Below are positions 33,488 to 44,762 of a DNA stretch of 64,000 bases, in pieces. Numbering within the stretch: the stretch's first letter is position 1; the number at the start of each line of letters is the position of its first letter. The position numbers were made by a program, and so were the translations under genes. This DNA comes from Priestia megaterium. Lineage in GTDB: Bacteria > Bacillota > Bacilli > Bacillales > Bacillaceae_H. The stretch covers positions 2,199,501-2,263,500 of the forward strand of contig NZ_CP023317.1 in assembly GCF_009497655.1 (NCBI RefSeq). Direction: 5' to 3'. Below the pieces are notes generated by a model. The model was not told where the DNA came from and did no database searches. It saw only the letters and a list, made by a program, of their open reading frames with translations.

Positions 33488-36022
33488 ATGGAAAAACGCT
33501 CTATCTCTTCATATTTAAAAGCATGGGTGCGCGCACTTTCAATTGAGATTAATTATATGAAGAAACACGGCGGAGAAAAGCATACGGTAGGAAAAGGAGA
33601 GTACTTAGGGCAGCAGGGAGATGCGTATCTTTACCGCTTTGAACGCACAGCCGATTTATACCTTTTTGATGGAGCTCAGGTACGCCTTGTCCACCAGCAT
33701 AAAGAAAGTAAAGGAGAAGTTATCGGAACGGAAGGATTTGATTTGTACCTTAAAATAGATGCGTTTATTGGACAAGAAGTAGACGAACTCGATATATATA
33801 ACGAACCATGGGAATTATTGCAGGCGCTCATTGATAGACTGACGGAAGCAAAAGACTACAAGCAAAAAATAGTAAGAATCAAACGTCTTATGAGAGGCGA
33901 TAGTCCTGTTCGTCATAAAGAGTATACGTCTAAGAACGCTCTTCATGAAGTGTTGCTGCGAGCGCGTTATAACCGTACTACTTATATTTGGGGGCCTCCT
34001 GGAACAGGGAAAACATATACGCTGTCCAAAATCGCGGCAAGCTATTACCGGAAATCAAAGCGGATCCTTTTATTATCTCACAGTAATGCAGCGGTGGACG
34101 GTTTGCTGCAAGAAACTGCACGTCAGTTAAAAAAGAAAGAAGCTTGGAAAAAAGGAAAACTCATTCGATACGGAGCAACAAAAAGCAGCGGCTTAGAAAA
34201 TATAAAAGTAGAAGAAGTCATTGGAGAAGATGATCCGGATTTAGCTCAGGAGATGCGTGATTTGCAAGAAGAACGAGTTTACTTAAGCAGGTATCCCAAT
34301 AGAGCTCACCAGCTTCAGCAAGTTAATAAAAAGCTAAACGCCCTTCGTAACAAGTGGATTGAAGCGGAGAAAAATGTTTTTGATCAAGCGTATATTGTAG
34401 GCACTACTTTATCAAAAGCGGCTATTGACCGATTACTTTATCAAAGTGAATTTGATATGGTTGTGGTAGACGAAATAAGCATGGCATATGCACCGCAAAT
34501 TGCTTTTGCAGCTACGTTAGGGAAAAAAATTGTCGTATGCGGCGATTTTAAACAGCTTCCCCCGGTATCTCAATCTTCTCATGCTGAAGTGAAGAAGTGG
34601 CTGCAGCGAGATTTATTTGAGCAGACGGGTCTTGTAGAGCAAGTAGAAAGCGGTGAGATCCATCCGCATCTTTTTATGTTGAAAAAGCAAAGAAGAATGC
34701 ATAAAGATATCTCAGCTTTTACAAATCGCTATATTTACAGCAATCGAGTGGGGGATCATCCATCTGTCACAACAAGTCGAGAAGTAGTAGCAAGCAGCCG
34801 GCCGTTTGCTCATGAAGCAGCGCTTATGCTTAACATTGGTCAGTTGCATTCTTCCGCTATGCGAGATGTCGCTTCCGGTTCACGCTATAATGTGATAACA
34901 GCTGTTTTGGCGGTAAGTTTGATACTGCGGGCACGCAAAGCTTCTTCGGCTACTATTGGCTATGTGACTCCTTATAAGTCTCAAGCTAAATTGATTAATG
35001 CATTTCTTCAAGATATTGAACCAGCCAGCGATATAATCGCAGCAACCGTACACAAATTTCAAGGCGCGGAACGAGATATCATGATTTTTGATACGGTCGA
35101 TACAAAGCCGCAGTCAAAACCAGGTTTACTTTTAACAAATGAAAATAGCGACCGATTGGTAAATGTAGCGGTGACGCGTTCAAAAGGAAAATTTATGATG
35201 CTTTCAGACGAGTCGTTTGTCCAGCAACGTGTACCAAAGGAGCGAGCGTTCTGGAAGTTGGTCAACCACTTTAACGAAAATCAAAAAGTATACCAACCTC
35301 AGCAATTTTTAAAAGAAGTCATTCAGCATCGGAAATTGATTTGGTACCATCCATCGAACAGCAGTCAGTTAAAAAAAGATTTATATCAAGCTCGGCAGCA
35401 GATTTTATTGTGTATTCCTTATGCTTCGCTTGTTCCTCAAGAAATACGGGAGATGTTACATTCATTTAAAGGTGAAGTGACCGTTCTTACTCGTGAACCA
35501 AAAGAAGTTCGAATTGACGGTGCTCATGTCATTTCATCTGCTGTTCCGATGTCACTGCTTATCATCGATGAATCCACTATATGGATCAATATGCCTTACG
35601 GCGGAAAAAATGAAGCGTTTATGGCAGCTAGAATTGAGTCAAAGCTAGGCGCTAAACAGCTTATTCGGTCAATTGATTTTACAGAAGATAAAACAAGAAA
35701 TCAAGAAACAAAAATGTATATAGAAACAAATAAACCACAATATTCTTTGAGTAATTACCTTCGTAGCTGGGATCGCTGTGAATCCTGTCAGCATATGCGA
35801 GAAGTAGAGATAACAAAAAAAGGAAAAGTAAGGTTTATTTGCTATTATTGCGGGAAAACAAGTGGGGCAACACGTTTATTAGTGGAAAAATATTTAAACT
35901 ACGTACATGCTGTATGTAGAGCATGCAAGCAGCCGATGAACGTAGAGTATGATGAAAATAAAGGCGTCTACGCATGTTGTCCATCGTGCAAAAAAGAAGT
36001 TTTGCCTAGAGATCTATTGTAA
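33488..36022 (+). CDS. Superfamily 1 (Upf1/DNA2-like) helicase with PLD-like and zinc-ribbon C-terminus
   Basis: 844 residues. An N-terminal ~150-residue region is followed by Walker A GPPGTGKTYT (~168), Walker B VVDEISMA, motif III GDFKQLPPVS and motif VI VNVAVTRSKG, as in Upf1/DNA2-type helicases. After ~620 there is a segment (YHPSNSSQLKKDLYQARQQI and on) that resembles the PLD-like accessory domains attached to such helicases, without an obvious HKD motif. The last ~90 residues hold two zinc ribbons (CESCQHM...CYYCGK; CRACKQ...CPSCKK). Role unknown. Confidence 0.82.
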   Translation: MEKRSISSYLKAWVRALSIEINYMKKHGGEKHTVGKGEYLGQQGDAYLYRFERTADLYLFDGAQVRLVHQHKESKGEVIGTEGFDLYLKIDAFIGQEVDELDIYNEPWELLQALIDRLTEAKDYKQKIVRIKRLMRGDSPVRHKEYTSKNALHEVLLRARYNRTTYIWGPPGTGKTYTLSKIAASYYRKSKRILLLSHSNAAVDGLLQETARQLKKKEAWKKGKLIRYGATKSSGLENIKVEEVIGEDDPDLAQEMRDLQEERVYLSRYPNRAHQLQQVNKKLNALRNKWIEAEKNVFDQAYIVGTTLSKAAIDRLLYQSEFDMVVVDEISMAYAPQIAFAATLGKKIVVCGDFKQLPPVSQSSHAEVKKWLQRDLFEQTGLVEQVESGEIHPHLFMLKKQRRMHKDISAFTNRYIYSNRVGDHPSVTTSREVVASSRPFAHEAALMLNIGQLHSSAMRDVASGSRYNVITAVLAVSLILRARKASSATIGYVTPYKSQAKLINAFLQDIEPASDIIAATVHKFQGAERDIMIFDTVDTKPQSKPGLLLTNENSDRLVNVAVTRSKGKFMMLSDESFVQQRVPKERAFWKLVNHFNENQKVYQPQQFLKEVIQHRKLIWYHPSNSSQLKKDLYQARQQILLCIPYASLVPQEIREMLHSFKGEVTVLTREPKEVRIDGAHVISSAVPMSLLIIDESTIWINMPYGGKNEAFMAARIESKLGAKQLIRSIDFTEDKTRNQETKMYIETNKPQYSLSNYLRSWDRCESCQHMREVEITKKGKVRFICYYCGKTSGATRLLVEKYLNYVHAVCRACKQPMNVEYDENKGVYACCPSCKKEVLPRDLL

Positions 36023-36084
36023 CTTTAGGAAAAGGGCGTGATCTTATCGTTTACTCTCGTAGTGTAGCGGCTTTAGCTGATTGT

Positions 36085-36723
36085 TTGCTAGAAGGAGACG
36101 TTCAAAAAAGCTGGCTGCTCATTGCTATATATATAGAAGAAGGCCATTCTTCAACTGACGTATATACGTTTTTGACAGAAGCGATGTATGAGATAGGGAA
36201 AAGGTGGCAAGAAAATAAAATTTCAGTCGCGGACGAGCATTTGGCTACTGCAACCTGTGACTATGTGTTAACTCGCTTTCAGCTATCACAGCATCAATTG
36301 CTTCAGCGTAATCGAGCACTTCTTTTTTGTATTGAAGGAGAAGAGCATTACTTAGGCATTAAAATGATTGCAGGACTTATGAGCGAACACGGATGGGAAG
36401 TTAAAAACTTAGGAGCAAACTTGCCGCTGCCGTTCGCTCTAAAAAGCATTGAAAGATGGGATCCTGATGTAGTATGTTTGTCCGTCTCACAAGTGCATTT
36501 GCTGCCTGATTTACAAAAATACATTGCTGAGATTGAAAGCATGTCGCAAAGTCCTCTTGTATTAGTGGGCAGCAGGCTTCTCAGCACGCATGATTTATCG
36601 GCTTCAGGATCTTCAAAAACTATATTCATTAATCATATTCAAGCTTTTAAAGACTGGCTTCTAATCAACAATAAAGAAAGTTCGACGCAAGATAAAATGT
36701 TAGTAATGGGGGAAGAAATATGA
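36085..36723 (+). CDS. Stand-alone B12-binding protein with CarH-type photoreceptor motifs
   Basis: 212 residues from a TTG at 36085. The N-terminal helical cap contains W41-x9-E51-H52 with Val48: exactly the residues that line the upper face of adenosylcobalamin in CarH (W131, V138, E141, H142). The Rossmann domain follows with E86-x-H88-x-x-G91, the lower-ligand motif. The later SxL/GG motifs are loosened (LSVS, VGSR). Unlike CarH/LitR there is no MerR DNA-binding domain. The codons 36046-36084 also read as the expected start of the cap helix (VYSRSVAALADCLL), so the true start is probably upstream at a non-standard codon. It overlaps the next gene by four bases. Confidence 0.8.
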   Translation: MLEGDVQKSWLLIAIYIEEGHSSTDVYTFLTEAMYEIGKRWQENKISVADEHLATATCDYVLTRFQLSQHQLLQRNRALLFCIEGEEHYLGIKMIAGLMSEHGWEVKNLGANLPLPFALKSIERWDPDVVCLSVSQVHLLPDLQKYIAEIESMSQSPLVLVGSRLLSTHDLSASGSSKTIFINHIQAFKDWLLINNKESSTQDKMLVMGEEI

Positions 36724-37340
36724 TCAGTTTGCCGATTCAACACATTCCGGTTCCAATGTTTTTACTCAATAAAGACAACGAAATAATTGAATTTACACCA
36801 AGCGTCACGAAAAATTTCCCGCCTGTTCAGAACTTTTTAGATCTAGTTGATGAAGACAGCCAAGAAAAAGTAAAAAGAGCACTCCAGGGAAAGGAAGAAG
36901 TGCAAATCGAAGTAAATATGCGCACGTTTTCCAACCCGGTTGCTCTTTTTGATTTTCATTTTAAGCCTGAAGCGTACCATTCGCTGCATGCTGTTTTCTG
37001 CTATCCTATTCATGAGCATATGATGAGTGTTCAATCAACCCTTCAACAGTTTCGCTCTATACTTATGCAAGACTCACCACAAGTGAACCAAGGTTTTTCG
37101 GTCAGAGAAACAGATGTAGAAACGGCGAAAAAAATGCAGCTAGTTGATCTTCAGCGTCATTTTCGAGAAATGAAAACAAATGTGCTAACCATTCAAGACC
37201 TCCTAAGTATTATCCGCTCCGACGTAATTGAAGCAGGAAAAGGAGAGTATATTGAATTGGTCTCTACACATTTGTTTGACATTCAAGATTTAATTAATCA
37301 GGAGCTTGACTGCTTAAGACAGAAGAACAAAGTACATTAA
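36720..37340 (+). CDS. PAS-like protein with a kinase-like helical hairpin but no ATPase domain
   Basis: 206 residues, ATG overlapping the TGA of the B12-binding gene, so the two are made together. The first ~105 residues look like a PAS domain (IPVPMFLLNKDNEIIEFTPS...). Residues ~135-200 form two helices: LQRHFREMKTNVLTIQDLL and YIELVSTHLFDIQDLINQEL. These resemble the dimerisation/phosphotransfer hairpin of histidine kinases, with a His (RHF) near the usual position. No HATPase domain follows. It could be a phosphotransfer partner or inhibitor of the convergent kinase. Function is inferred only. Confidence 0.6.
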   Translation: MISLPIQHIPVPMFLLNKDNEIIEFTPSVTKNFPPVQNFLDLVDEDSQEKVKRALQGKEEVQIEVNMRTFSNPVALFDFHFKPEAYHSLHAVFCYPIHEHMMSVQSTLQQFRSILMQDSPQVNQGFSVRETDVETAKKMQLVDLQRHFREMKTNVLTIQDLLSIIRSDVIEAGKGEYIELVSTHLFDIQDLINQELDCLRQKNKVH

Positions 37341-40300
37341 GAAAGCGGCAATCGGATTTCTACCGTTGTTCCTTTGCCTTCTTCACTATCATACGAAATG
37401 CTTCCTTTATGATTACTAATGATTTTATGACTCACCATCAATCCTAATCCTGTTCCTTTTTCTTTTGTTGTATAGAAAGGCTCGCCAATTCGTGTTAATC
37501 GATCTTTCGGCATGCCTTTTCCTTCATCTATCACTTGGACGACTACTTGATTTGTATCTGGATCAAATTTAGATACCACTAGAATAGACCCGGGGTCATC
37601 CATCGCTTCAATAGAATTTTTCATCATGTTGATAAATACTTGTTTCATATCTTTTTCAATACAATGAACAACAGGTAATTTTTCTTCAAAATCCGTTGAA
37701 ATAGTAATGTTTTTAAGAATGGCCTGTGTATGCAGCAGTGTACATACGTCTTGAAGAATTAAATTTATCTGCTTATTTTCATATTTTACGACTTCGGGTT
37801 TGGCTAGAATGAGCAGTTCGCTAATAATCAGCTCTAAGCGGTTAAACTCGGACATCATGACATCCATATATTCTTTTTTATACGTTTCTTCTTGCATCAT
37901 AAGCTGTAAAAAGCCCTTTAATGATGTAAGAGGGTTTCGTATTTCATGGGCAATGCCGGCAGCCAGCTGTCCAAGTGCTGACAGCATCTCTGAATTTTTG
38001 AGCATCATTTCCGACTGTTTGCGCTGTGAAATGTCTTCACTTAAACCAATGTAATGGATGATTTCATCTTGATCATTTTTAACAGGCATTAAGGCTAACT
38101 GTTCCCAAACGGTTTCTCCGTCTTCTTGAACGTAGGAAATTTCTCCGTTCCATTTTTCTCCTCTGTATACTTCATTCCAAATTTTAGGGAATCTTTTAAC
38201 GCCCAGCTTTTTTGTATATAAGTCGTAGAGGTGCAGCCCAAATACTTCTTGCGGCGCATGCTTTTGCTCCATGAATTTTTGATTAATGTACTTAATTTTA
38301 CCTTGATGATCGGTAATAAAAATGCCCGTAGGACTGTGAGCTACTGCAAATGATGTAATAGCCAATTCTTCATTTGATCGTTTAATTTCTGTAATATTAA
38401 TAAACGTGATAACTACACCGTTAATTAAATTCTCGTTCGTACGATAAGGCATCATTTTCATGCTATACCATTGGTTATCGTAGCTTTGAATTTCTTTTTG
38501 AAGGGTGTTATTTGTTCTTAAAACGTGCATTGCGTCCTCGATTAGATGGTCATATCTAAAGTTATGCGAAATATGAAAGAAAGGTCTTCCGATATCTTGA
38601 TGAAGAACGTTGATCACTGTTTTCGTTTCCGGCGTAAATAATTTAATATTCAGCTGCTCGTCTAAAAAGATGGTAGCAATAGTTGTACTGATTAATAAAT
38701 TATCAATATCGTTGTTTAAGTCCGTTAATTCTTCAATCTTTCGCTCGTACTGGTTGTTAACACTAATTAACTCTTCATTAACAGACTGCAATTCCTCATT
38801 TGTGGACTGCAGCTCTTCGTTGGAAGCAATCAGTTCTTCGTTCGTGGATTTTAGCTCCTCATTTGCTGTTTCTAGCTCTTCAATCGTCGTTTGCAAATGC
38901 TGCTGAGTGTAATGAAGCTCTTGCTCTAAATCTACTACAAGCTCACTAATAGAGCTTGTTTGATTAAGAAACATGGGCTCTTCCTTATCAATAATGGCAC
39001 TATCTGTCTGTTCATCAAACATAAGTAAGTAAAGAGAGTGATTTGTTGGAAGGGCAGATATCGTAATATTAAAACGGCGCTGCACGTTGTTTATGACAAA
39101 TTCAATGTGCTGACAGCATACGCTCATACCTTGCTCTTTTACGCGTTTAATAGCTGCTCCAATGGCTAAAGAGACGTGAACGGGAACCATTTTGAAAATG
39201 GTATAATTAATCTTCCCCACAGGAACGTTAATAAGCTGAGTCGCTTCTTTTGAACAAAATATCACTTCGTTGTATTCATTTAATACAAGACAAGGGCTCA
39301 TAAAATGATCAATCATTGACTGATACATCTCATCCAATTTAAGCGAAGGAAGAGGCTTATAAAGTTGACTTGGCAGCGGTACGCTAGAAAAATCACCTTC
39401 ATGCAAGCTGGATTTTGAAAGATTAAAAGCTCCTGTAATTTGTCGGCTGGGCTGCCCCGAACGTTTAAATATTTTCCACTTACTGTTGATAGGGCGGAAC
39501 AAATCAGACAAATTTCCCGTTGTTTCACTAGGGCCTAAAAAAAGTACGCCTTCTTCTGTCAAAGAAAAATGAAAAAGAGACAGAATGCGCTGCTGCAGTT
39601 CAGCTTGGAAGTAAATCATCATATTTCGACAGCTGATTAAATCAACGTTTACAAAAGGCGAGTCTTTTCCTATATTATGCGGGGCAAAAACAATCATTTT
39701 ACGGATTGTTTTTTTAACTTGATAACCACCGTGTTTTGTTTGCTCAAAATATTCATTAATCTGAGCTGCTGAGAAGGAATGAACTTCCGCTTCTTCATAA
39801 ATGCCTTGACTCGCTCTTTTGATTGCATGACGATCGATGTCCGTAGCAAAGATTCGGACATCGAAATAACGGTTGATTGTTGATAAATAGTCATGAAGCA
39901 AAATAGCTAATGTATATGCTTCTTGACCAGTAGAACAACCTGCTACCCAGATGCGGATTTCATCTTCTTGGCTATGAATCTTTCTTTCAACTAATTGAGG
40001 GATGACTTGTTCTTCAATAATAGAGAATGCTTCTTTATCTCTAAGAAATTGCGTCACTCCAATCAGCAGGTCTCGCTGCAGTTCGACGATTTCTTCGGCT
40101 TCCTTACATAAATAGTCCCGGTACTCTTCCATCGTTTGAGAGGGCGGATCGAGTAAAGCCATTCTTTTTTCAAGTCGTCGCAGCACCGTGTTTTTTTTGT
40201 ACATAGAGAAGTCGATGCCTGTTTTCTTCTTTATTAGTGAATAAATGTATTGCAGCGTTTCTTCATTATATGTAAATTCAGTTTGGCTGACATGCGTTTG

Positions 40301-40897
40301 CACAAGGTCAGGCATATCAGCAGGAGAAAGAATATAATCAGCAAGGTGTGCATCAATAGCGCTTAGGGGCATATCTCTGTACTTTGCTGTGCTTTCATCT
40401 TGTACAAGTACAGTTCCGCCATACTCTCTTATCGTTTTTGCTCCTCCTGTTCCATCATTTCCTTTTCCCGATAAAATAATGGCTGTGCACCGGTGTTTTT
40501 TTGCAGCGGCCAGAGAATGAAAAAAGGCGTCAATCGGATACTTTACCTGATCATTTTCTTCATAAGGACGAAGGCGAAGAGTATGATCCACAACGGTCAC
40601 ATAATGATGGGGAGGATTTAAATAAATTGTGTCTTCTTGTAAAGTCATCCCGTCTTGTGTCAGTTTGATATTCATTCCTGTTTTTTTTGCTAAAAGTTCT
40701 GGCATAAAACTTTTATATTTAGAGGAAAGGTGCTGTACAATAATAAACGCCATTCCATTTGGTGAAGGCATATTAGCGAAAAACTGCTCAATAGCTTCTA
40801 ACCCTCCGGCAGAAGCGCCAATTCCCACAACGTGTAAATCCTGTTTCTCTATTCCTTCTGAAGACGATGGAACTGTAGAAAACGAGTTGTTCTTCAT
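37337..40897 (-). CDS. CheB-CheR-PAS-histidine kinase fusion
   Basis: 1186 residues. Order: CheB methylesterase (~20-205; GIGASAGG with Ser29, VQHLSS with His56, SGKGNDGTGG); CheR methyltransferase (~215-485; AGCSTGQEAYTLA, FATDIDR, SCRNMMIYF); a PAS-like region; a heptad coiled coil of repeated STNEEL-type units (~675-750); two PAS domains; and a C-terminal kinase with H-box GIAHEIRNPLTSLKGFLQLM, N-box NMMKNSIEAMDD and the G-boxes DEGKGMP and GTGLGL. All catalytic motifs appear intact. No transmembrane segment or receiver domain. The H-box closely resembles KinA-E sporulation kinases. It converges on, and overlaps by four bases, the PAS-like gene. Confidence 0.9.
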   Translation of the reverse strand: MKNNSFSTVPSSSEGIEKQDLHVVGIGASAGGLEAIEQFFANMPSPNGMAFIIVQHLSSKYKSFMPELLAKKTGMNIKLTQDGMTLQEDTIYLNPPHHYVTVVDHTLRLRPYEENDQVKYPIDAFFHSLAAAKKHRCTAIILSGKGNDGTGGAKTIREYGGTVLVQDESTAKYRDMPLSAIDAHLADYILSPADMPDLVQTHVSQTEFTYNEETLQYIYSLIKKKTGIDFSMYKKNTVLRRLEKRMALLDPPSQTMEEYRDYLCKEAEEIVELQRDLLIGVTQFLRDKEAFSIIEEQVIPQLVERKIHSQEDEIRIWVAGCSTGQEAYTLAILLHDYLSTINRYFDVRIFATDIDRHAIKRASQGIYEEAEVHSFSAAQINEYFEQTKHGGYQVKKTIRKMIVFAPHNIGKDSPFVNVDLISCRNMMIYFQAELQQRILSLFHFSLTEEGVLFLGPSETTGNLSDLFRPINSKWKIFKRSGQPSRQITGAFNLSKSSLHEGDFSSVPLPSQLYKPLPSLKLDEMYQSMIDHFMSPCLVLNEYNEVIFCSKEATQLINVPVGKINYTIFKMVPVHVSLAIGAAIKRVKEQGMSVCCQHIEFVINNVQRRFNITISALPTNHSLYLLMFDEQTDSAIIDKEEPMFLNQTSSISELVVDLEQELHYTQQHLQTTIEELETANEELKSTNEELIASNEELQSTNEELQSVNEELISVNNQYERKIEELTDLNNDIDNLLISTTIATIFLDEQLNIKLFTPETKTVINVLHQDIGRPFFHISHNFRYDHLIEDAMHVLRTNNTLQKEIQSYDNQWYSMKMMPYRTNENLINGVVITFINITEIKRSNEELAITSFAVAHSPTGIFITDHQGKIKYINQKFMEQKHAPQEVFGLHLYDLYTKKLGVKRFPKIWNEVYRGEKWNGEISYVQEDGETVWEQLALMPVKNDQDEIIHYIGLSEDISQRKQSEMMLKNSEMLSALGQLAAGIAHEIRNPLTSLKGFLQLMMQEETYKKEYMDVMMSEFNRLELIISELLILAKPEVVKYENKQINLILQDVCTLLHTQAILKNITISTDFEEKLPVVHCIEKDMKQVFINMMKNSIEAMDDPGSILVVSKFDPDTNQVVVQVIDEGKGMPKDRLTRIGEPFYTTKEKGTGLGLMVSHKIISNHKGSISYDSEEGKGTTVEIRLPLS

Positions 40898-41292: not shown

Positions 41293-41348
41293 AGGAACCG
41301 TTGAAAGAAACGAGAACAAAAATACGAACAAATGACAGGGGAGATTTG

Positions 41349-42191
41349 ATGGATCAAAAACAAAAAGTTGCTTTTTTAGGTGCTGGATCAATGGCAGAAG
41401 CGATGATTTCTGGTATGGTCAATGCAAAGAAATTACCTGCTGAAAATATTATCGTAACAAATCGTAGCAATGATGCGCGACTGCACGAACTTGAAAATAG
41501 ATATGGTATCAAAGCAGTAAAGCGCAGCGAGCTGAAAACAGATGACATTGACGTTTTTATTCTAGCGATGAAGCCAAAAGGCGCTGAAGAGGCATTAAAC
41601 GAATTAAAGCCTCAAATCAACAAAGACCAGCTTGTCCTATCTGTTCTTGCAGGGATTTCATCTTCTTACATGGAAGAGTTATTGCATGATGAACAGCAGG
41701 TCATTCGAGTGATGCCGAATACATCAAGTATGATTCAGCAATCAGCAACGGCTATATCTCCAGGTCAATATGCTGCAATGGATGCTGTGCTAACAGCAAA
41801 AGAGCTGCTTTCTGCAATCGGAAAAGTGTACGTGATTGATGAGCCTCAAATGGACATTTTCACAGGAATTGCCGGAAGTGGACCCGCTTATTTTTATTTC
41901 CTTATGGAGCATATCGAAAAAGCAGCTAAAGAAGAAGGTCTCGATCCTGAGCTAGCACGTGAAATTGGCGCCCAAACCATTTACGGTGCAGCAAGAATGA
42001 TGATGGAAAGAGATGAAACGCCGACGGAGCTTCGTGAAAATGTGACGTCTCCAAACGGTACAACAGCAGCTGGTTTAGACGCCTTAGCTAAACACGGCGG
42101 CGGAGAAGCAATGATGCAAGCAGTCAAAGGAGCATCAAAGCGTTCAAAAGAAATGAGTGCTCAACTACAAAAAGTGGCAAGTACTAATTAA
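41349..42191 (+). CDS. proH: Pyrroline-5-carboxylate reductase
   Basis: 280 residues. Last step of proline synthesis (P5C to proline). N-terminal Rossmann motif VAFLGAGSMAEAMISG, mid-protein VIRVMPNTSSMI, and the family signature TLRENVTSPNGTTAAGL-like stretch ELRENVTSPNGTTAAGLDAL. The ATG at 41349 follows GGGGAGATTTG. First of three consecutive proline genes; in B. subtilis and B. licheniformis the order P5C reductase - glutamate kinase marks the osmostress proHJ system rather than the housekeeping proBA-proI, hence the symbol. Confidence 0.9.
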   Translation: MDQKQKVAFLGAGSMAEAMISGMVNAKKLPAENIIVTNRSNDARLHELENRYGIKAVKRSELKTDDIDVFILAMKPKGAEEALNELKPQINKDQLVLSVLAGISSSYMEELLHDEQQVIRVMPNTSSMIQQSATAISPGQYAAMDAVLTAKELLSAIGKVYVIDEPQMDIFTGIAGSGPAYFYFLMEHIEKAAKEEGLDPELAREIGAQTIYGAARMMMERDETPTELRENVTSPNGTTAAGLDALAKHGGGEAMMQAVKGASKRSKEMSAQLQKVASTN

Positions 42192-42278
42192 TTCGTCACT
42201 TATCTTCTTCGTGAATTCCTCACCACAAAAAAATAATCATAAACAAGAAAACATACAGAACACACTAGGAGTGATTTG

Positions 42279-43385
42279 ATGAGTCCCGACAATAAGAAGC
42301 GGGTTGTAATTAAAATTGGAAGTAGTTCATTAACAAGTTCACACGGTGAAATCAGCAGACGGAAGCTCGAGCGCCTTGTGGATCAAGTCGTAGACTTAAA
42401 AGATAGTGGTCATGAAGTGCTATTGGTTTCATCAGGAGCTGTAGCTGCAGGATACCGCAAGCTTGGCTGCTTAGAGCGACCTAGCTCTTTACCTGAAAAA
42501 CAAGCAGCTGCCTCAATTGGTCAAGGACTGTTAATGGAGGCTTATTCAGAACTGTTTCTATCACATGGATACGTTGCTTCTCAAATCTTAATTACGAGAG
42601 ACGATTTTTCAGACGAAAATCGTTACAACAATGCACGAAATACAATTAATGTGCTGTTAGAACGTGGCATCGTACCAATTGTCAATGAAAACGACACGGT
42701 AACCATCAATCGATTAAAATTTGGCGACAATGATACACTTTCAGCTAAAGTTGCTGGACTAGTGGATTCCGACCTGCTTATTATTTTATCGGATATCGAT
42801 GGCTTATACAGCGCAGACCCTCGTCAGGATCCAAATGCAAAATTAGTTCCTCATGTAGGGGAAATCACGCAAGACATCGAAGAATCTGCAGGAGATTCAG
42901 GAAGTTCAGTTGGAACAGGCGGTATGCGCTCGAAAATTGACGCGTTCAAAATCGCTATGGCGTCAGGAATTCCAGCATTTTTAGGAAGAGCTGGCGTGCC
43001 AAACATTTTAACACAAGCGGTTGACGGGGATGCAACAGGAACGTATTTTGAATCTGAAGATGATTCTGCGAACCTTAATCAGAAAAAGCAGTGGATTGCG
43101 TTTAACTCTGGTCCTGAAGGGGAAATAGTAGTCGAAGATGCCGCGAAACGTGCAATTATTGAAGATAAAGAGCCTTTACTTCGCGAGCATGTTAAATATA
43201 TTAAAGGCCACTTTAGTGAACGAGCAGTTGTACGTATTCTAGATAAAGATGACAATGAGCTGGCTCTTGGCGTGACAAATTATTCATCTGATGAACTTGC
43301 ACTGAATGAGCCAATTGATCAACCGATTGTTGACAGCGAAGGTCTAGTGTGTCACTTAGAAATTCCAGTACCGGTCGGTTTGTAA
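42279..43385 (+). CDS. proJ: Glutamate 5-kinase
   Basis: 368 residues. Phosphorylates glutamate, the first step of proline synthesis. Amino-acid-kinase motifs VVIKIGSSSLTS, LVSSGAVAAGYRKLG and IVNENDTVTINRLKFGDNDTL-type region are visible, with GTGGMRSKIDAFKIA. A C-terminal PUA domain starts at ~280. The ATG at 42279 follows AGGAGTGATTTG. As the second gene of the P5C-reductase-first operon it is best seen as ProJ. In the osmostress isoenzyme, feedback inhibition by proline is expected to be weak; this cannot be read here. Confidence 0.9.
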   Translation: MSPDNKKRVVIKIGSSSLTSSHGEISRRKLERLVDQVVDLKDSGHEVLLVSSGAVAAGYRKLGCLERPSSLPEKQAAASIGQGLLMEAYSELFLSHGYVASQILITRDDFSDENRYNNARNTINVLLERGIVPIVNENDTVTINRLKFGDNDTLSAKVAGLVDSDLLIILSDIDGLYSADPRQDPNAKLVPHVGEITQDIEESAGDSGSSVGTGGMRSKIDAFKIAMASGIPAFLGRAGVPNILTQAVDGDATGTYFESEDDSANLNQKKQWIAFNSGPEGEIVVEDAAKRAIIEDKEPLLREHVKYIKGHFSERAVVRILDKDDNELALGVTNYSSDELALNEPIDQPIVDSEGLVCHLEIPVPVGL

Positions 43386-43499
43386 GCAAACATGCTGTAA
43401 AGAAAAGGAGCCCTTCCTTTTCTTTGCATGATTGCATTTACCTCTTATGCCTCACACTTTAAAATCAAACAAAACTAAAACGAATCCAGGAGTGATTTG

Positions 43500-44762
43500 G
43501 TGTTACAAACAAATGAAACGTATTCAGTAGAAGAACAAGCTATTTCAGCAAAAAAAGCAGCTAAGCAATTAAGTTTACTAACAACAAAGCAAAAGAACGA
43601 TGCGCTGTTAACGATTGCTTCTACACTTGAAAGCAACACGGAGTATATTTTAAAAGCAAATGAAGTAGACTTAAAAAACGGGAAAGAAAAAGGTTTTGAC
43701 GAAGCGCTTATGGACCGCCTTGCTCTTTCAGCGGAACGTGTAAAAGAATTTGCAAACGGCCTTCGTGAAGTTGCTGAGCTAGATGATCCAACAGGCGATA
43801 TTTTATCAAGCTGGACATTGGATAACGGTCTAGATGTAAAGCAAGTACGGGTGCCTCTTGGCGTGATCGGAATGATTTATGAAGCACGTCCAAACGTAAC
43901 CGTAGATGCAACAGGGCTAGCGTTGAAATCTGGAAATGCTATTGTGTTAAAAGGCGGATCTTCAGCTATTTCATCTAACCAAGCTATCGTGGACATTATT
44001 CATAAAGCTCTTGATGAAACGCCAATTCCTAAAGAAGCGGTACAGTTTATTTCAAGTACAGATCGTGCGGCTACGCAAGAATTATTTACAATGAAAGAGC
44101 ATATTGACGTGCTGATTCCGCGCGGAGGGGCTTCATTGATTCAAGCGGTCGTCAATAACGCAACCGTTCCCGTGTTAGAAACGGGAGTCGGAAACTGCCA
44201 TATTTACATCGATGAAAAAGCTGACGTTAAGAAGGCCATTCCGATTTTAATTAATGCAAAAACAGATCGACCAGCGGTGTGTAACGCAGCAGAAACGGTT
44301 CTTGTACACAAAAACTGGCTCGATTCTCATAAAGATGAATTGATTCAAGCATTCAACGATCATAGTATTGAAGTATATGGTGACAAAGCGACAGTAGGTG
44401 AAATTCCTGGAGCAAAACCAGCGGCTGAAAAAGACTGGGCTGAAGAGTATTTACGCTTAGCAATTGCGATGAAAGTAGTAGAGAGTGTGGATGAAGCGAT
44501 TGACCATATCGAAACATATGGAACAAAACACTCCGAAGCCATCATTTCAGAAGATGAACAAGCCGTTTCACGCTTTATGTCATTAGTTGATGCAGCCGCA
44601 CTGTATCATAATGCATCTACGCGCTTTACTGACGGAGGAGCTTTAGGATTTGGAGCTGAAATTGGGATTTCAACTCAAAAGCTTCATGCACGTGGTCCAA
44701 TGGGACTTCCTGCACTTACGACAATTAAATATATTATGAGTGGAAACGGACAAACTCGATAA
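43500..44762 (+). CDS. proA: Gamma-glutamyl phosphate reductase
   Basis: 420 residues. Reduces glutamyl phosphate to glutamate semialdehyde. An aldehyde-dehydrogenase fold with VPLGVIGMIYEARPNVTVDA, LKGGSSAISSN and the catalytic cysteine segment DRPAVCNAAETVL. The GTG at 43500 follows AGGAGTGATTTG, the same spacing as in proJ, rather than the TTG at 43497. Its presence here makes the operon a full proline pathway (proHJA), as described for osmoadaptation in B. licheniformis (proAA). Confidence 0.92.
   Translation: MLQTNETYSVEEQAISAKKAAKQLSLLTTKQKNDALLTIASTLESNTEYILKANEVDLKNGKEKGFDEALMDRLALSAERVKEFANGLREVAELDDPTGDILSSWTLDNGLDVKQVRVPLGVIGMIYEARPNVTVDATGLALKSGNAIVLKGGSSAISSNQAIVDIIHKALDETPIPKEAVQFISSTDRAATQELFTMKEHIDVLIPRGGASLIQAVVNNATVPVLETGVGNCHIYIDEKADVKKAIPILINAKTDRPAVCNAAETVLVHKNWLDSHKDELIQAFNDHSIEVYGDKATVGEIPGAKPAAEKDWAEEYLRLAIAMKVVESVDEAIDHIETYGTKHSEAIISEDEQAVSRFMSLVDAAALYHNASTRFTDGGALGFGAEIGISTQKLHARGPMGLPALTTIKYIMSGNGQTR

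Follow-up and report, generated by a model that had tools for sequence, protein, structure and literature searches.

A 64,000-nucleotide stretch of the Priestia megaterium genome (NCBI RefSeq assembly GCF_009497655.1, contig NZ_CP023317.1, positions 2,199,501 to 2,263,500; hereafter the window, numbered from its first nucleotide) contains a module of three genes, which encode a stand-alone cobalamin-binding protein (the B12 protein), a PAS protein with a helical hairpin (PAS-DHp) and a large CheB-CheR-PAS histidine kinase (Table 1). The Pfam matches and motifs by which the observed genes were identified are far beyond chance. We propose, at about even confidence, that they form a contact-based sensor pathway, in which the B12 protein would signal to a PAS pseudo-kinase and this in turn to the activity of the CheB-CheR kinase; the module can be described as photocobilin-type sensing with an unusual output. 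A first-pass annotation, made from the sequence alone, had outlined three open reading frames, the last of them convergent with the other two, and a check of the reading frames located them and their overlaps as described there: the B12 and PAS genes overlap by 4 bases, and so do the PAS and kinase genes, the latter overlap joining the stop-codon ends of both.

Linkage of the three genes in other genomes, the point on which that annotation had made its proposal depend, turned out to be widely conserved, and its linkage claim was right and stronger than it could know. Relatives of the B12 protein were compared in the best 80 named loci of 339, using profiles for the PAS types that were built from small sets. 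The gene following the B12 gene encoded a PAS-STAS protein in 63 of these loci, a PAS-DHp protein in 14 and a PAS-histidine kinase in one, while none of the types was recognised in the remaining two, one of which belongs to Priestia flexa. A CheR-containing gene was present in 14/14 PAS-DHp loci versus 0/63 PAS-STAS loci (Fisher test, 1.2e-15, a value that overstates independence because the loci are related and the labels in the B12 tree cluster by descent). In this tree (91 rows, with several long branches and an unsure deep order) the PAS-DHp label changed 3 times versus a mean of 19.3 after shuffling, and the PAS-histidine kinase label once versus 3.0. One row of the tree, titled Chryseobacterium sp. 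ISL-80 (L106), is near-identical to Cytobacillus and probably comes from a mislabelled or contaminated assembly.

The same association was found when the kinase was taken as the starting point. A sample of 397 genomes of the order contained 16 kinases (E<=1e-180) in 14 genomes, and 14 of the 16 are convergent with a PAS-DHp and a B12 gene. Second kinase copies without the pair occur in two genomes that also have a linked copy (L172 in G020, where the 3' flank ends at the contig end, and L173 in G130). A sample of 398 genomes of the class, from which the own genome was excluded in the kinase count, added 14 kinases, of which 8 were linked to the pair and 6 had no pair within 1.5 kb, so that 22 of 30 kinases overall are linked. 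When 11 of the 14 module loci were compared as eight lineages, the three families were present in all eight, and no other family was found in at least three of them, barring open reading frames antisense inside the kinase gene. The linkage spans three named families: Bacillaceae, Paenibacillaceae and Alicyclobacillaceae. Within the genus, six of ten genomes carry both the kinase and the B12-PAS pair, and neither the kinase nor a window-type pair was found in three (G005, G007 and G009). In a seventh genome (G004) the B12 gene is kept, the kinase is present as fragments and the PAS match covers just the first 47 residues. The P. flexa locus (L085, 4922-6576), to which this genome corresponds, likewise has an intact B12 gene and a kinase reduced to CheB/CheR fragments.

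The B12 protein matched PF02607 (2.8e-11) and PF02310 (1e-13) and contains the motifs GKRWQENKISVADEH (W-x6-V-x2-EH), EEHYLG (ExHxxG) and GANLP. Motif and Pfam checks agree with its earlier description as a stand-alone B12 protein with a CarH-like cobalamin pocket and without a DNA-binding domain, since Pfam recognised just B12-binding_2 and B12-binding and no MerR-type domain. CarH/LitR has the same W-x6-V-x2-EH, ExHxxG and GxxxP pocket motifs but also carries a MerR DNA-binding domain, which the window protein lacks. The earlier label of a CarH-type sensor therefore holds for the pocket motifs and not for the closest solved relatives. In a PDB search these were photocobilins (8j2x, 1.5e-16, residues 17-176; 8j2w, 1.6e-16; 8jbs, 2e-13; 8j2y, 3.9e-10), with CarH behind them (8.4e-4), and the protein missed the NCBIfam CarH equivalog (37.9 bits, cut-off 400). 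In sequence it is nearer to photocobilins than to CarH. All four parts of the SignatureFinder signature for light-responsive cobalamin domains (GxxW, EH, GxxH and GxxxP; PMC11796333) are present in the window protein, and the GxxH glycine is kept in 13 of 14 PAS-DHp-linked relatives (L087 has N). Light sensing by the module is plausible. The window genome (5.24 Mb) encodes three stand-alone B12 proteins of this type, the other two each followed by a PAS-coil-STAS gene. One of these B12-PAS-STAS pairs (L030, region of G000:C1:301064) directly follows genes that by eye resemble a sensor kinase and a response regulator.

The PAS protein gave nothing over any Pfam cut-off, and its best PAS-type match had an E of 0.028. 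Below-cut-off matches to PYRIN (E 0.0029), ENOX1, prok_STING, SlyX, DUF4252 and ARMC9 were judged to be noise. The AlphaFold2 model (pLDDT 76, pTM 0.44) shows a PAS domain together with a long hairpin of helices, as the first-pass annotation had it; what has changed is the class of the protein, which we now regard as a degenerate histidine kinase on the strength of a profile match and the lack of a phospho-acceptor His. Against the PAS-histidine kinases found in sister pairs, the PAS-DHp profile reached 99.8% over 195 columns that include the DHp domain, and DHp alone reached 90.7% (at most 0.97% in 50 shuffles, one side consisting of two sequences). The phospho-acceptor column contains His in 0/26 PAS-DHp sequences (two of which, L193 and L194, probably repeat L145 and L152) versus 3/3 PAS-histidine kinases, and the window protein has Arg there. 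Eight Alicyclobacillus-type sequences have a His one residue after the aligned column, so a shifted site is possible in these. No HATPase was found in the window protein or in six relatives scanned. By its sequence the PAS protein is a pseudo-kinase, i.e., a dead histidine kinase, and PAS-DHp proteins either descend from a PAS kinase paired with a B12 protein or are sisters of one.

The PAS-coil-STAS proteins with which the B12 gene is paired in most of the sister loci, and which we take to resemble stressosome-type regulators such as YtvA/RsbR, end in a STAS domain, whereas Pfam found none in the window PAS protein. Both other outputs stand side by side in Metabacillus lacus (L138, 8349-12440), where a B12-PAS-STAS set and a B12-PAS-histidine kinase-ABM-globin set are arranged back to back and divergently.

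The kinase exceeded the Pfam cut-offs for CheB, CheR_N, CheR, PAS_10, further PAS domains, HisKA and HATPase_c, which is the CheB-CheR-PAS-PAS-kinase architecture that had been predicted, and it has the domain order and catalytic residues of CheB-CheR-PAS histidine kinases. It keeps the CheB Ser/His/Asp, the CheR S-adenosylmethionine (SAM) motifs, the phospho-acceptor His and the N, G1 and G2 boxes; catalytic roles are assigned to the motif residues of CheB and CheR. Twenty module-type proteins were aligned, two unlinked copies among them; CheB motifs were found in all 17 proteins with that domain and CheR motifs in 20/20, while the kinase was complete (His, N, G1 and G2 intact) in 15/20. The proteins of G053 and G092 kept CheB and CheR and lost the ATPase and the phospho-acceptor, and three Sutcliffiella-type proteins are reduced to CheR, a coiled coil and a DHp remnant. 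All six Sutcliffiella-type sequences have the CheR SAM motifs, and the one that was scanned matched nearly the full CheR model and not CheR_N. The ratio of nonsynonymous to synonymous substitutions (dN/dS) was low, at 0.06-0.08, for the Sutcliffiella-type sequences where defined, with saturated dS, and 0.05-0.10 overall (rough values, since dS was saturated at 0.8-2.8 and several comparisons were undefined). Of the enzymatic domains, CheR alone is shared by every module locus examined, both kinase-less lineages included. The first-pass annotation had named the kinase as the target of the signal; a kinase is indeed linked, but what stays constant in the output is the CheR domain and not the kinase activity. 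Because two lineages lost the kinase part and kept CheR, methylation may be the core output. Chemoreceptors are encoded in 13/13 module genomes tested (5 to 38 each), and each of these genomes has at least one other CheR.

A further component is probably encoded outside most module loci. In 50 of the 63 PAS-STAS loci two genes lie beside the B12 gene, one with an ABM domain (possibly a heme-degrading monooxygenase) and one that encodes a small helical protein. A 25-row profile of the small protein matched phycocyanin alpha in the PDB (9e-4), followed by photocobilins (0.013, 0.013 and 0.05), and a single-sequence search gave weak matches (tRNA ligase 0.21, phycocyanin 0.25). Its model (pLDDT 93) is phycobiliprotein-like (TM 0.74) and photocobilin-like (TM 0.77, 8j2w); Foldseek returned 0 matches to it at E<=0.001, and the top rows were phycobiliproteins and photocobilins with E of at least 0.009. 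Pfam matched Phycobilisome below cut-off in L046 (0.0016), gave better, unrelated weak matches in L050 and found nothing at 0.1 in L086 and L145. Among the 397 genomes, 148 have both this globin and the B12 family, 11 the globin only, 24 the B12 family only and 214 neither. Of 13 module genomes tested, 12 encode the globin as a gene of its own (absent from G033), and in the order sample 12 of the 14 genomes with a kinase have it (absent from G002 and G033). It lies near the module in only 3 of 14 named module loci. In genus g141, however, all six genomes with a match show the order ABM gene (HMO-like), globin, kinase on one strand, the globin directly before the kinase, and this set is convergent with PAS-DHp and B12. 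The globin of the window genome is at G000:C1:3032831, about 0.8 Mb away from the module in the window, where it and an ABM-domain gene stand alone (L077), about 21 kb from a B12-PAS-STAS pair at C1:3010821.

The globin is probably the bilin half of a split photocobilin. In the photocobilins of solved structure (SasPcob 8j2w/8j2x, AbDPcob 8j2y; PMC10979010), the cobalamin domain is the nearest solved relative of the B12 protein and the bilin domain resembles the separate globin in sequence and fold. Both chromophore domains form one chain in photocobilins, whereas the window genome has separate genes: the B12 reading frame ends right after the B12 domain, with no bilin-type globin in the same chain. 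The output, by way of a PAS pseudo-kinase to a CheB-CheR kinase, is also unlike that of photocobilins. As a precedent for action in trans, free photocobilin is reported to alter the activity of a separate diguanylate cyclase domain (PMC10979010). Separate genes for bilin-type globins and B12-binding proteins, together with pre-2 ferredoxin-dependent bilin reductases, are described outside the Bacillota, for BBAG-2 in Myxococcales, in the passages of PMC10151467 consulted, which mention no PAS or CheB-CheR partners. Bacillota globins differ from BBAG-2 in that an RGM motif without Cys is frequent.

In the proposed pathway, the B12 protein would bind adenosylcobalamin in its CarH/photocobilin pocket, as motifs and homology suggest, and would switch state upon light-driven cleavage of the Co-C bond or in the absence of cobalamin. 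It would then signal to the PAS domain of its overlapping partner; we infer this because the B12 gene is invariably paired with a single PAS family, in which STAS, histidine kinase and pseudo-DHp replace one another as the output domain. The hairpin of PAS-DHp would probably pack against the helical bundle of the CheB-CheR-PAS kinase encoded next to it, and this contact would set the CheR/CheB methylation chemistry as the constant part, as well as phosphotransfer in those proteins that still have the kinase. A split photocobilin could be completed by the bilin-type globin in most module genomes. A more specific version, which we consider quite unlikely as it stands, is a light-gated methylation switch in which the split photocobilin (the B12 protein and, in genomes that have it, the globin) steers CheR, together with CheB, by way of an adaptor that is a dead kinase and has a hairpin pairing with the kinase-like bundle of the enzyme; methylation of chemoreceptors or other targets would be the ancestral output, and phosphorylation would be optional and twice lost.

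Several observations weigh against the proposed pathway, or against a strict form of it. The similarity between the hairpin and the DHp domain of the module kinases themselves is weak (49.6%, helix 2 only; at most 3.3% in 30 shuffles), and the degenerate DHp of the G053/G092 CheB-CheR protein weakens the case for a universal DHp-DHp contact. Structural support for PAS-DHp is limited to its PAS part and leaves the hairpin uncovered: VIA-align, in which the PAS part alone was compared, supports it with a Z of about 13, while the top Foldseek match, the LOV-kinase 4gcz, has a whole-chain TM of 0.40 and no superposition. In one of the 14 linked cases (G003; L072, L013) the B12 and PAS frames are broken and the kinase is intact; another B12 paralogue of this genome is broken as well, so that assembly errors are possible. 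Eight of the 30 kinases have no B12-PAS pair within 1.5 kb. The kinase family is thus wider than the module and works, or is maintained, also without the B12 sensor, and the B12-PAS pair is therefore an added sensor. Lastly, G002 and G033 have the module without a globin match, so the globin is inessential.

It is possible, if doubtful, that PAS-DHp is instead an antikinase that blocks the CheB-CheR-PAS kinase, the output being phosphotransfer to an unlinked response regulator, possibly in the sporulation phosphorelay. Sda is an analogue of such an antikinase. The 15 aligned proteins with intact His, N, G1 and G2 boxes are in line with this, as is the orphan state of the kinase: a linked response regulator is not conserved (2 open reading frames in 11 module loci, in different lineages, with a single response-regulator probe that may miss distant ones). 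The kinase region also matched the sporulation kinase KinD (2.6e-52), under the family cut-off and with a better score for AtoS. Against an antikinase, the six loci of the Sutcliffiella-type clade, like G053/G092, have lost the kinase part and still have B12, PAS-DHp and CheR together. Unlikely, in our estimate, is the same wiring with cobalamin supply or redox state as the signal and light as incidental. In its favour, the pocket motifs indicate a cobalamin pocket and not photochemistry, the globin is missing from two module genomes (G002 and G033), and the window genome encodes further B12-binding-domain proteins (8 matches in total). Against this stand the full light-responsive signature, the photoreceptors among which the nearest solved relatives of the B12 protein are found, and the genome-wide co-occurrence with a bilin-type globin, which fits light sensing.

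Two further explanations seem highly improbable. The B12 protein could be the corrinoid carrier of a methyltransferase rather than a sensor, given that it weakly matches MtgC_2 (3.8e-9) and corrinoid proteins of the MtaC type, but CarH (1.2e-9) and photocobilins (1.5e-16) match equally well or better, a PAS protein partners the B12 gene in 78 of the 80 named loci, and no methyltransferase recurs as a neighbour of the module; we rejected this reading. That the genes are chance neighbours inherited together would agree with the clustering of B12-tree labels by descent, and fits poorly with a linkage that extends across three named families with nothing else conserved around the module, and with the joint decay of pair and kinase in P. 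flexa.

Table 1. Features of the module in the window.
Feature	Position	Strand	Residues	Basis
Stand-alone cobalamin-binding protein (B12-binding_2 cap and B12-binding domain); start uncertain	36046..36723	+		Open reading frame, Pfam
PAS pseudo-kinase adaptor, putative (PAS-DHp)	36720..37340	+		AlphaFold2 model, fold comparison, profile match
PAS-DHp, PAS domain	~36720-37013	+	1-98	
PAS-DHp, helical hairpin	~37116-37331	+	133-204	
CheB-CheR-coiled coil-PAS-PAS-HisKA-HATPase kinase, 1186 aa, convergent	37337..40897	-		Open reading frame, Pfam
CheB methylesterase domain	40307..40828	-	24-197	PF01339 1.7e-50
CheR_N	40109-40252	-	216-263	PF03705 2.2e-10
CheR SAM-binding methyltransferase domain	39473..40057	-	281-475	PF01739 3.3e-56
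Two PAS domains after the coiled coil	38024..38707	-	731-836, 852-958	PF13596 5.2e-29, PF13426 7.5e-16, PF08448 8.1e-15
HisKA and HATPase_c	37343..37975	-	975-1035, 1081-1185	PF00512 5e-14, PF02518 3.5e-25

The B12 start in Table 1 is that of the first-pass annotation and is an ATC codon. Between the upstream stop and TTG 36085, the first canonical start, this frame contains no ATG, GTG or TTG, and the B12-binding_2 match of Pfam begins ahead of this TTG, near 36070 (at residue 15 if the frame is read from 36028). A GTG at 36038 belongs to another frame, which stops at 36065. L010 and L012 have the same stretch here as the window, and the B12 gene of G002 starts with GTG. Upstream in the window, a superfamily-1-like helicase gene (by eye; 33488-36022) ends 24 bases before 36046; a helicase-like gene is also found 5' of the B12 gene in G002 (L014) and is common to fewer than three module lineages. 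On the 5' side of the kinase, three open reading frames (41301-44762) resemble proC, proB and proA by eye.

In the literature searched, no paper describes the three-gene set by title or abstract, and an earlier prediction of part of it is possible; the parts of PMC8508746 and PMC8156234 that were available contain nothing on this module. Cobalamin light sensing is known to act on DNA binding, in CarH, and on a diguanylate cyclase, in photocobilin. A pseudo-kinase route to CheB/CheR would link B12 photobiology with two-component signalling and with adaptation chemistry of the chemotaxis type, and it would do so in common, non-phototrophic soil bacteria. The module makes it testable how a stand-alone cobalamin sensor relays its state by contact: the PAS family with its swappable outputs (STAS, kinase, pseudo-DHp) offers natural controls and possible optogenetic parts, and the three proteins of the kinase-less Sutcliffiella version, of about 220, 180 and 350 aa, are small enough for reconstitution.

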